Below are positions 48,467 through 61,060 of a stretch of DNA of 64,000 nucleotides, one piece after another. Under the pieces are notes generated by a model. That model was not told the origin of the DNA and did no database searches. It worked only from the letters and a program-made list of their open reading frames with translations. The stretch is from NCBI RefSeq assembly GCF_003944835.1, contig NZ_RWIV01000001.1:4267501-4331500 (forward strand). Reading direction: 5' to 3'. Each line of letters starts with the position of its first letter. Within the stretch, counting starts at the first letter, position 1. The stretch is from Bacillus sp. HMF5848 (GTDB taxonomy: Bacteria > Bacillota > Bacilli > Bacillales > HMF5848). The translations under genes were made by a program, and so were the position numbers.

Positions 48467-49051
48467 TTATATTTTTCCAATGAGAGTTATGTCCCGTTTT
48501 ATACCAGGTTGACCGGGCACCCAATTTGCAGGTAAACCTTCTCCTGTTCGTCTACCATATTGTATGCCCTGAATAAGTCTCAGAATTTCATATACGTTTC
48601 GGCCCACTTCAAGTGGATATACGAGTTTTGACACTATTATACCATTTGGATCGACAATAACGGTTGCTCGAAACGTGGCACCTGTTCCTTCATTCAGCAC
48701 TCGATAAGCACGACTAATTTCATGCGTTCGATCACTTACAAGTGGAAATGGTAGATCAGCTACTGATGGTGACACCTCTGTAAAGACTTTATGAGCATAT
48801 ACACTATCTGTACTAATTCCAAGTACGTCGGTCTGCAGTGCTTGTAATTGCGGATATATAGCAGCGACCGCTGCTAATTCAGTTGGTCATACAAAGGTAA
48901 AGTCGCTTGAGTAAAAAAATAATACAAGCCAACGACCACGATAATCTTTCATTAAAACATTTTTTATCGTTTTCGTAACATTATCATAAGCTTCGGCAGT
49001 AAAAAGCGGTGCTTGATCAGTTGTTTGTGCACAAAAAGGATACGTGTCCAT
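48467..49051 (-). CDS. prxU: Selenocysteine-containing peroxiredoxin (PrxU), UGA at codon 55
   Basis: A single frame of 194 codons from ATG 49051 (GGGGGG site 7 nt upstream) to the stop at 48467, with one internal TGA at 48889-48887. It encodes an AhpC/TSA peroxiredoxin: YRGRWLVLFFYSSDFTFV-U-PTELAAV, then LGISTDSVYAH, FPLVSD and FRATVIVDPNG. The UGA stands exactly at the peroxidatic Cys. Nothing else breaks the frame, and a SECIS-like hairpin follows, so Sec insertion is a better reading than decay. PrxU selenoproteins with Sec here are known in other anaerobic Firmicutes. The usual resolving Cys (CPANW) is Leu (GLPANW), so recycling should be 1-Cys type. It would reduce peroxides in the cytoplasm. 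The gene follows fadH by 116 bp without a terminator. Confidence 0.85.
48859..48889 (-). promoter_or_regulatory. Candidate bacterial SECIS element with its UGA
   Basis: On the minus strand: UGA, 10 nt spacer, then stem UAGCAGC / GCUGCUA (7 bp, no mismatch) closing the tetraloop GGUC at 48866-48869. The loop starts 17 nt after the UGA, and it begins with GG, as bacterial SECIS loops require. The E. coli fdhF SECIS also presents GGUC at about this distance. The stem lies inside codons for LAAVAA. Confidence 0.82.
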
Positions 49052-49167
49052 ATAATCCCCCCACATATAGAGTCATTGCTATATATATGCAACTGATATA
49101 TGTAGATGCTTGCCTATATGTAGGGACGATTACTGTGTTTATTTTTATTGTGTGATTGAGCTCTCTT

Positions 49168-50155: not shown

Positions 50156-50560
50156 ATGAACGAAGAACAAGTTCCATCATTAGCAATTATTTTATTGTCC
50201 GAGGAAATAGAAAAGCTCCATGCTGGCGCATTAGTTGGTTCTGTAGCTTCAATGTCGGGTATGCAAGTAAATATTTTCGTTACAATGAATGCATTGAAAA
50301 ATTTTTCCAAAGAGTTTTTTGCCGCAAAGGATTTTAAAGCTGGTACGGTCGGAAAAGAAATGCTCGCCAAAGAAATCCCCTTATTTGACCATTTATTAAG
50401 CGAGGGAAAAGATATGGGCGATCTTCACATATACGGCTGTGCAATGGCAATGGACGTTATGGGTTGGGAAAAGGACGATATGATTGATGTATTTGATGAT
50501 ATAATCGGCGTCACTGCCTTTCTTGGTATGGCACAAAACGCACAAGTCGTCACCATGTAA
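50156..50560 (+). CDS. DsrE/DsrF-like family protein
   Basis: 134 residues. The DsrE-like fold pattern is seen in SLAIILLSEEIEKLHAGALVGSVASMSGMQVNIFVTMNAL, and a single Cys in DLHIYGCAMAMDVMGW is placed like the sulfur-binding Cys of DsrE/TusD proteins. It probably carries or transfers persulfide sulfur in the cytoplasm. GGGAGG lies 8 nt before the ATG. It is first gene of a four-gene operon with TusA, an SQR-like flavoprotein and DUF1641. Confidence 0.87.
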   Translation: MNEEQVPSLAIILLSEEIEKLHAGALVGSVASMSGMQVNIFVTMNALKNFSKEFFAAKDFKAGTVGKEMLAKEIPLFDHLLSEGKDMGDLHIYGCAMAMDVMGWEKDDMIDVFDDIIGVTAFLGMAQNAQVVTM

Positions 50561-50780
50561 TAAACAAGCATGTGTGTTCACATACAAATCAGTATGGACG
50601 TGATACTTTCACAGAAGTTGTCGAGCCTACTAATATGAAAATTAACTCCCACATAGAGCAAAAAAGTTTAGTACTGAAATAATGGCACTTAGAGTTTTAT
50701 CAATATATTCCCAAAAAGTCTGGAGGGCGGTTGTACTTGTTGTACGTTCCGCCTTTAAAAATAAAGTCGGAGGGATTTAA

Positions 50781-51017
50781 ATGAATATTGAGATTACAAA
50801 ATCTGTTGATGCAAGAGGTTCTTACTGCCCTGGTCCTTTAATGGAATTAATTAAAGCCATTAAAAAGGCAGCTGTTGGTGATGTAATTGAAGTATTATCA
50901 AACGATAAAGGATCTGCTGTTGATATTCCAGAATGGATAAAAAAAATGAAGCATGAGCTCGTACACAATGAAAAAATTGATGATTATTGGAAGATTGCTG
51001 TTCGTAAAATGAAGTAA
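50781..51017 (+). CDS. TusA/SirA-like sulfur carrier
   Basis: 78 residues with the invariant CPGP motif (Cys16 in DARGSYCPGPLMELIKAIKK) that bears a persulfide. TusA proteins relay sulfur to tRNA thiolation, molybdopterin synthesis or sulfur oxidation; the DsrE and SQR neighbours favour sulfane sulfur handling. GGAGG precedes the ATG. The 220-bp gap after dsrE holds a GGCGG/CCGCC hairpin (about 50724-50753) that may tune read-through. Confidence 0.92.
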   Translation: MNIEITKSVDARGSYCPGPLMELIKAIKKAAVGDVIEVLSNDKGSAVDIPEWIKKMKHELVHNEKIDDYWKIAVRKMK

Positions 51018-51030
51018 GGGGGCAGACACA

Positions 51031-52170
51031 ATGCCAAAAAAGATTGTCATCCTTGGTGGCGGAACGGCAGGAACAATGGTGGCGAACAAGCTTGCTCGTC
51101 AACTGCAAGCTGAAATTAAAGAAAATAAAGTTGAAGTTACATTAATTTCAAACACTGAGAAACATATATATCAACCTGGATATTTGTTTATCACCATGAA
51201 CATCCATGCTCCTGAGCACTTTATTAGAGATGAAAAAAAAGTAGTGCACCGACATGTGAAGCTTATTTTTGACGACATTGAAAAAATCGATAAAGCAAAC
51301 CATCGCCTCGTGTCTATGGCCAATTCTTACGATTACGATCAGCTGGTAATAGCAACTGGTTCTCACCCGAATTTTGATAGCTTACCTGGTTTAAAAGAGG
51401 GAGCACATGATTTTTATACGCTTGAGGGAGCCATTAGACTCCGAGATGCATTAGCGACTTTCGAGGGTGGGCGCATTTTAATTACAATTGATGTTCCTCA
51501 TAAATGTCCGGCTGCGCCGCTTGAAGTGAGCTTAATGCTTGATGATTACTTTAGAAAAAAATTAATACGTGACAAGGTAGAAATTAAATATACGTACCCG
51601 ATTGGTAGAATCCACTCTTTACAGCCAGTGGCTGAGTGGGCTGAGCCCAATTTCGAAAAACGTAATATCCTAGCTGAAGTCTTTTTTAACTTAGAAGAGA
51701 TTGATCCTGCTCGTAAAGTAGCTATTACGATGGATGGAGAAGAACATCCATATGATATATTAATCTCCATACCAGCGCATACAGGGGCTTCTGTTATACT
51801 CAACTCAGGGCTTGGTGATGAAGATGGTTTTATCCCTACAGACCGTTACACATTAAAAATGATTGGCTCAGATAACGTATATGTCATAGGAGATGCAACG
51901 AATTTACCAATTAGCAAAGCAGGTTCAACCGCTCATTATCAAGGTGACGTACTGGTTAAGAACCTCGTTGACCGTGTTCGTGGTTTACCTGAAACAGCTG
52001 TATATAACGGCAAAGTGGCATGCTTCTTAGAAAATAGTCTAGACGATGCAAGCTACATTACGTTTGACTACACTCATCCCCCTAAGCCAGCGAATACGTC
52101 AGAGCTTCTTCATTGGTTTAAATCAATATATAACGAAGTATACTGGCTCAATGTTCGCGGGATTATGTAG
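51031..52170 (+). CDS. Sulfide:quinone oxidoreductase-like flavoprotein
   Basis: 379 residues with an N-terminal FAD Rossmann motif ILGGGTAGTMVANKLA, ATGSHPNFDSLPG in the NAD/FAD domain and the second FAD motif VYVIGDATNLPISKAG. Only two Cys stand out (PHKCPAAP and VACFLEN), which is the number expected for the redox disulfide of some SQR types. It would oxidise sulfide or persulfide and pass electrons to quinone or another acceptor, with TusA/DsrE receiving sulfur (inference). It is 13 bp after the TusA gene. Confidence 0.87.
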   Translation: MPKKIVILGGGTAGTMVANKLARQLQAEIKENKVEVTLISNTEKHIYQPGYLFITMNIHAPEHFIRDEKKVVHRHVKLIFDDIEKIDKANHRLVSMANSYDYDQLVIATGSHPNFDSLPGLKEGAHDFYTLEGAIRLRDALATFEGGRILITIDVPHKCPAAPLEVSLMLDDYFRKKLIRDKVEIKYTYPIGRIHSLQPVAEWAEPNFEKRNILAEVFFNLEEIDPARKVAITMDGEEHPYDILISIPAHTGASVILNSGLGDEDGFIPTDRYTLKMIGSDNVYVIGDATNLPISKAGSTAHYQGDVLVKNLVDRVRGLPETAVYNGKVACFLENSLDDASYITFDYTHPPKPANTSELLHWFKSIYNEVYWLNVRGIM

Positions 52171-52182
52171 GAGGTGAAGCTA

Positions 52183-52731
52183 ATGGAAGTGAGTAGCTTA
52201 GAACATACAACCACAATGGAATATGCTAAGGAGCTTATAGAGGTCGCCATTCAGTCTATGACAAAGGAAATGGTTGATGAGATTACAAAAAAAGCAATCG
52301 CATCCGTTGAGCTTATTGATGACATTGCTCAACCTGAAACAATCGAATTACTTAAGAAGCTCCCTGACGTAAGCGAAAGCTTATCTCGATCCCTAGATGA
52401 AATTAAAAAGCTTGAACAAACTGGCTCATTACAAACACTAATTGAAGTAGCAGAGATGATTGCTGCAGCTAAAGTATCCATGACAAGCACTATGGTATTG
52501 GACATAGTTGAAAAAGCCATTGCTGGTGTAGAACTAGCTGATGATTTAACCCAAAAAGGCGCTATTCCTTTAGCAACTAATATGATAGCTTCGTTTACAG
52601 AAGCAATGGATGAATATGAAGACAAACAACCACTGTCATTATTACAATTAGCTAAGTCTATGAAGGATCCGAATGTTCGCAAAGGGTTAAGCATCCTTGT
52701 TTCTTTTTTAAAAAGATTCGCTAACGGCTAA
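52183..52731 (+). CDS. DUF1641 protein
   Basis: 182 residues, all helical, with two similar halves (MTKEMVDEITKKAIASVELIDDI and MTSTMVLDIVEKAIAGVELADDL). DUF1641 proteins commonly neighbour formate dehydrogenase or SQR-like flavoproteins, but the role is unknown. The ATG at 52183 is 8 nt from AGGAGG; the GTG at 52174 overlaps it. It is last gene of the operon. Confidence 0.85.
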   Translation: MEVSSLEHTTTMEYAKELIEVAIQSMTKEMVDEITKKAIASVELIDDIAQPETIELLKKLPDVSESLSRSLDEIKKLEQTGSLQTLIEVAEMIAAAKVSMTSTMVLDIVEKAIAGVELADDLTQKGAIPLATNMIASFTEAMDEYEDKQPLSLLQLAKSMKDPNVRKGLSILVSFLKRFANG

Positions 52732-60589: not shown

Positions 60590-61060
60590 GCGGTTGCGTG
60601 TCTAGGAATGTTTTGTATGTCAGGGTTGCGCGGTTGCGTGGTTTAAACGCAGGAATCGTGTGTGAGAAATGCACGGTTGCATGTCGAGATTGCATGGTCC
60701 CGTGTCGAAAATGCACGGTCACGAGAATTGGCCGGGACCAAACGCCAGAAATGCACGGTTGCATGTCGAAATTGCACGGTCGCGTGTCGAGATTGCACGT
60801 TCGCGTGTCGAAAATGCATGTTCACGAGAATTGGCCGGGACCAAACGCCAGAAATGCAGGTTGCATGTCGAAATTGCACGGTCACGTGTCGAGATTGCAT
60901 GGTCACGTGTCGAGATTGCACGTTCAAAAAAAGTGCAACATGGGTTTTGGCGCGTTTTCGACAAAGTTTGGCTCGATGTCGACATAATTGCGGGCGTTTT
61001 CGGCATATAACCGCTCATTTTCGACAAAATTACGCACATTACCGATACCAGAGCTCACAA
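60590..61060. repeat. 21-bp repeat array C with 19-bp linkers and an inverted tail
   Basis: Units TGTCGA(A/G)A(A/T)TGCA(C/T)GGTC of 21 bp in groups broken by a linker (ACGAGAATTGGCCGGGACC). Linker-phase positions 60665, 60747 and 60850 are 82 and 103 bp apart, the same values as in array A, although the linker sequence differs. From about 60952 the units change to TTTTCGACA forms, the reverse complement of TGTCGAAA, for about five more 21-bp steps. It is non-coding; open frames on both strands are a by-product of the period. Confidence 0.88.

Follow-up and report, generated by a model that had tools for sequence, protein, structure and literature searches.

Selenocysteine (Sec) peroxiredoxins have been known since PrxU of Eubacterium acidaminophilum (Soehling 2001, as cited in PMC9312934), and the TxxU motif serves as the definition of a Sec-peroxiredoxin (PMC9312934). 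Peroxiredoxin selenoproteins numbered 12 in 2006 (PMC1794560) and 91, in 78 organisms, in 2016 (PMC5029168). For Bacillales, the 2006 count of selenoproteins stood at three families with three proteins (PMC1794560), and in a literature search that covered few subscription journals we found no paper on a Sec peroxiredoxin in Bacillaceae.

Here we describe a gene in a window of 64,000 nucleotides from Bacillus sp. HMF5848 (C1:4267501-4331500 of the 4.55 Mb, 2-contig genome). Like PrxU, it combines a peroxiredoxin domain, a TxxU motif with a predicted peroxidatic Sec, an in-frame UGA and a SECIS element directly downstream. We put at about 97% the probability that the gene is intact and would encode a peroxiredoxin with Sec as its catalytic residue, inserted by SelB at the UGA via the downstream hairpin. 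Sec peroxiredoxins are already known as a kind; the gene in the window represents a Bacillales-type subfamily of them.

Results

A peroxiredoxin frame with one internal UGA

The frame running from 49051 to 48467 holds a single internal TGA at codon 55, with SSDFTFV before it and PTELAAV after it, and ends in GKI and a stop (Table 1). Its ATG is preceded by a G-rich ribosome site, GTGGGGGGATTATATG. When the UGA is read through, the protein matches Pfam AhpC-TSA over residues 12-140 (6e-34), a match that spans the UGA, and carries both the peroxiredoxin domain and TxxU at the peroxidatic site. Translation and Pfam thus bear out the sequence-only reading of a 194-codon peroxiredoxin frame with its one UGA at the catalytic Cys. 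That reading had also held that starts beyond the UGA would give only a short C-terminal piece, in agreement with the 102 codons, from a GTG, that we find there. The window has 24 frames with a single TGA that is preceded by at least 10 codons and followed by at least 60; of these, only the peroxiredoxin frame has a SECIS-like hairpin.

Table 1. Coordinates of the Sec-peroxiredoxin gene, its predicted elements and the Sec genes of the same genome (C1 and L018 positions lie outside window numbering)
Feature	Position	Strand or placement	Details and basis
Sec-peroxiredoxin gene	48467..49051	(-)	194 residues including predicted Sec55; translation, Pfam AhpC-TSA 6.2e-34, Ka/Ks
In-frame UGA, peroxidatic Cys position	48887..48889	(-)	TxxU motif T52-F-V-U55
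Predicted bacterial SECIS hairpin	48859..48876	(-)	UAGCAGC-GGUC-GCUGCUA; loop GGUC 48866-48869; fold, synonymous lock, covariation
Purine-rich ribosome-binding site, 5' of ATG 49051	49057..49063	(-)	sequence, by eye
tRNA-Sec	C1:2041128-2041220	(-)	Rfam 54 bits (cut-off 47) and ARAGORN; anticodon tca
selB	C1 2041822	(+)	355.6 bits, cut-off 242
selD	C1 2043950-2044876	(-)	398 bits; own in-frame TGA
selA	C1 2045397	(+)	557 bits
SelW-like CxxU gene	L018:3038-3040 (genome C1 about 2045037), ORF from about L018:2996	between selD and selA	by eye

The genome carries a complete Sec system

The presence of selA, selB, selD and a tRNA-Sec with a UCA anticodon in the same genome had been named as a check on Sec decoding, and all four are there, in one cluster away from the window (Table 1). 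Counting the peroxiredoxin, selD and a SelW-like gene, the genome has at least three UGA genes. The SelW-like gene is a small ORF, MEKQYKLIIQFCMQ-U-NYAPKAAGL..., in which a CxxU motif can be seen by eye (FCMQ-U-NYAPKA); it has a hairpin of its own, CCGCG-GGUCU-CGCGG, with a GGUCU loop. No Sec formate dehydrogenase was found: none of the genome's 11 molybdopterin oxidoreductase matches has a UGA inside its PF00384 region, and upstream of the five best matches the N-termini are intact.

The UGA is conserved and follows the Sec system

In a scan of GTDB genomes, all 61 Bacillales-type relatives, at 54-76% identity, have TGA at the peroxidatic codon; they come from Neobacillus, Rossellomorea, Peribacillus, Pseudalkalibacillus, Mesobacillus, Thalassobacillus and other genera. 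Next in identity among the homologues spanning this codon, at 41% or less, are sequences with TGT or TGC. Genus and family searches gave only the window's own genome, and the order was therefore sampled evenly, with 397 genomes; 53 of these have the gene, 52 of them with one TGA. The TGA shared by these relatives and order genomes places the frame far beyond chance.

Of the 52 UGA genomes, every one has selA and 51 have selB; the exception at the threshold used (G202) is a 480-contig draft whose selA lies on a short contig. Of the 397 genomes, 179 have SelB, and the earlier expectation that Sec decoding would be unusual in this family was not borne out. The overlap of UGA gene and selB has a P of about 8e-19 in a hypergeometric test that ignores kinship. 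The one Cys version (L143) has TGT, and both its genome and that of a congener are without selA and selB.

A TGA lies one base from the Cys codons TGT and TGC, and the frame might accordingly be read as a sequencing error or as a pseudogene, an ordinary Cys peroxiredoxin with a recent nonsense mutation. One true relic of the gene is known, in Fictibacillus macauensis (L116), where the gene flanks are kept, the catalytic Sec segment and hairpin are lost and the genome is without selB. Decay or error in the window is hard to reconcile with a TGA that recurs in 61 relatives, some as distant as 54% identity, and in 52 genomes of the order, with the conserved hairpin described below and with strong purifying selection past the UGA. 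Median Ka/Ks over 117 comparable pairs of relatives is 0.10 on either side of the UGA, and the value for the downstream side argues that this part of the gene is translated and has a function. The conservation of the TGA rules this reading out for practical purposes, and we return to an intact gene with a conserved Sec codon.

A conserved, covarying hairpin follows the UGA

The core stem, GCAGC-GGUC-GCUGC, begins 12 nt after the UGA. It is found in all 71 distinct UGA sequences, either unchanged or with changes that mostly preserve pairing. The hairpin's codons are locked, GCG in 71 of 73 sequences and GTC likewise in 71 of 73; outside the hairpin, Ala and Val codons vary freely, with four codons in use for Val. 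Paired changes occur at columns 27-36 (A-U to G-C, in 14 sequences), 30-33 (G-C to A-U, in two) and 24-39 (in one), in sequences that are related, so that independent events are fewer than the cells counted. The hairpin columns pair in 98.4% of cells, compared with 25-28% when slid by one or two columns, and the covariation score is 0.209 against 0.146 +/- 0.009 for shuffled alignments. In the Cys (TGT) homologue the hairpin does not form. Because the window sequence by itself folds with unremarkable energy (z -1.15) and an Rfam scan of the hairpin region gave no match, the hairpin rests on the alignment.

Compared with the SECIS of E. coli fdhF, as checked in E. coli genomes, the predicted element has the same GGUC loop and the same position, about 11-12 nt after the UGA. 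The two differ in stem sequence, and the stem in the window is continuous, with no bulged U.

The UGA could also be read through independently of a Sec system, by Trp insertion or near-cognate suppression, for instance. We found nothing in support of this, and several observations weigh against it: the UGA sits at the catalytic Cys, the gene's presence tracks selA and selB, the genome that has no Sec system carries Cys there and not Trp, and the hairpin has a SECIS-like GGUC loop. We consider such readthrough extremely improbable. Decoding of the UGA as Sec in an intact gene is strongly favoured, since the full Sec machinery, the hairpin and the UGA kept in dozens of relatives all point to it. 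Every check of the sequence-only reading that could be run (machinery, TGA at the same column in relatives, hairpin 3' of the UGA) came out in its favour.

Place among peroxiredoxins

The best-scoring NCBIfam model is PrxU (NF040737), at 164 bits, below its cut-off of 270; the AhpC model gives 150.7 bits against a cut-off of 272. The sequence-only reading, which drew on PrxU selenoproteins, is apt as far as it denotes a Sec-peroxiredoxin, but a strict assignment to PrxU is unsupported at these scores. By sequence, the protein sits between PrxU and AhpC.

The AhpC of the same genome is about 39% identical to the window protein and shares the fold, the peroxidatic motif and the C-terminal GKI tail of the typical 2-Cys type. 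It differs in having Cys where Sec is predicted, and in the resolving motif, GEVCPAKW in AhpC and GEGLPANW here. Leu173 thus takes the place of the resolving Cys of the AhpC motif (VCPANW, here GLPANW). The motif could be found in 72 of 74 relatives, and none of the 72 has a Cys in it. Many members (55/74), though not all, have a Cys close to the N-terminus, Cys7.

The Bacillales-type sequences form one group in the tree (support 96/97), apart from the sampled Cys peroxiredoxins, with real PrxU sequences absent from the comparison. The lone Cys member falls within this group; a change from Sec to Cys is the likely direction, a polarity that depends on its unsettled position in the tree. We lean towards a distinct, Bacillales-wide and Sec-only subfamily apart from PrxU and AhpC, probably marked by the missing resolving Cys, a near-obligate UGA, a frozen GGUC SECIS, and a Cys swap or deletion only where the Sec system has been lost.

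Neighbouring genes and repeats

No partner gene common to all of the relatives' loci was found. In some Neobacillus-type genomes (L048:4509, L052:4505, L057:3268, L058:4509), a second and different gene of peroxiredoxin-like sequence lies directly 5' of the Sec peroxiredoxin; it too has an in-frame TGA (FTPG-U-IKEIASWKEDY) and a hairpin (CCUCUU-GGA-AAGAGG), which makes two tandem selenoprotein genes. About nine Mesobacillus-type loci (L089:5739-7146 and similar) have, by eye, apparent cytochrome bd oxidase genes directly 3' of it. In the window, DsrE-like, TusA-like and sulfide:quinone-reductase-like ORFs, again recognized by eye, stand in a row at 50156-52731, adjoining the selenoprotein gene, which suggests sulfide metabolism. 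Elsewhere in the window, repeats of one kind form two arrays, at 1547-1962 and 60666-60926, about 59 kb apart, with a 21-base unit such as AAATGCACGTTCCCGTGTCGA and a higher unit of about 103 bases.

Discussion

We propose a model in which the ribosome arrives at the UGA while SelB, carrying Sec-tRNA-Sec, is bound to the GGUC loop of the downstream hairpin, and Sec would be inserted in place of termination. The selenolate of Sec55 would then attack hydroperoxides. Since the resolving Cys of AhpC is replaced by Leu173, the standard inter-subunit disulfide would not be used, and oxidized Sec would probably be reduced directly by an outside thiol, such as thioredoxin or a low-molecular-weight thiol. 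A Sec-only catalytic cycle with an external thiol as reductant is likely on the evidence of the sequence.

It is tempting to ask whether Sec insertion might be conditional, with scarce selenium often leading to termination or to Cys at this codon, and the UGA acting as a selenium-dependent switch of the peroxidase. UGA recoding does compete with termination, and a recoding level of 30-40% is quoted for E. coli (PMC4513850); the genome's Cys AhpC and another Cys peroxiredoxin could serve as backup. However, the sequence gives no sign of a dedicated switch, and such behaviour would come as a by-product of normal Sec decoding. We regard a switch as unlikely, and prefer Sec as the regular catalytic residue.

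The gene had been called hidden. Standard annotation would indeed call it broken or truncated, but RefSeq reads the orthologue of Cytobacillus spongiae (WP_225003809.1) as one CDS through the TGA. The Sec reading rescues such a gene, and the wider sample shows Sec use to be common in this Bacillus-group order, in about 45% of sampled genomes. The lone Cys case, in which machinery and hairpin have both been lost, offers a clean natural experiment on the retention and loss of a selenoprotein. Further, the missing resolving Cys raises a testable biochemical question, namely which reductant would serve a Sec-only peroxiredoxin in Bacillales.
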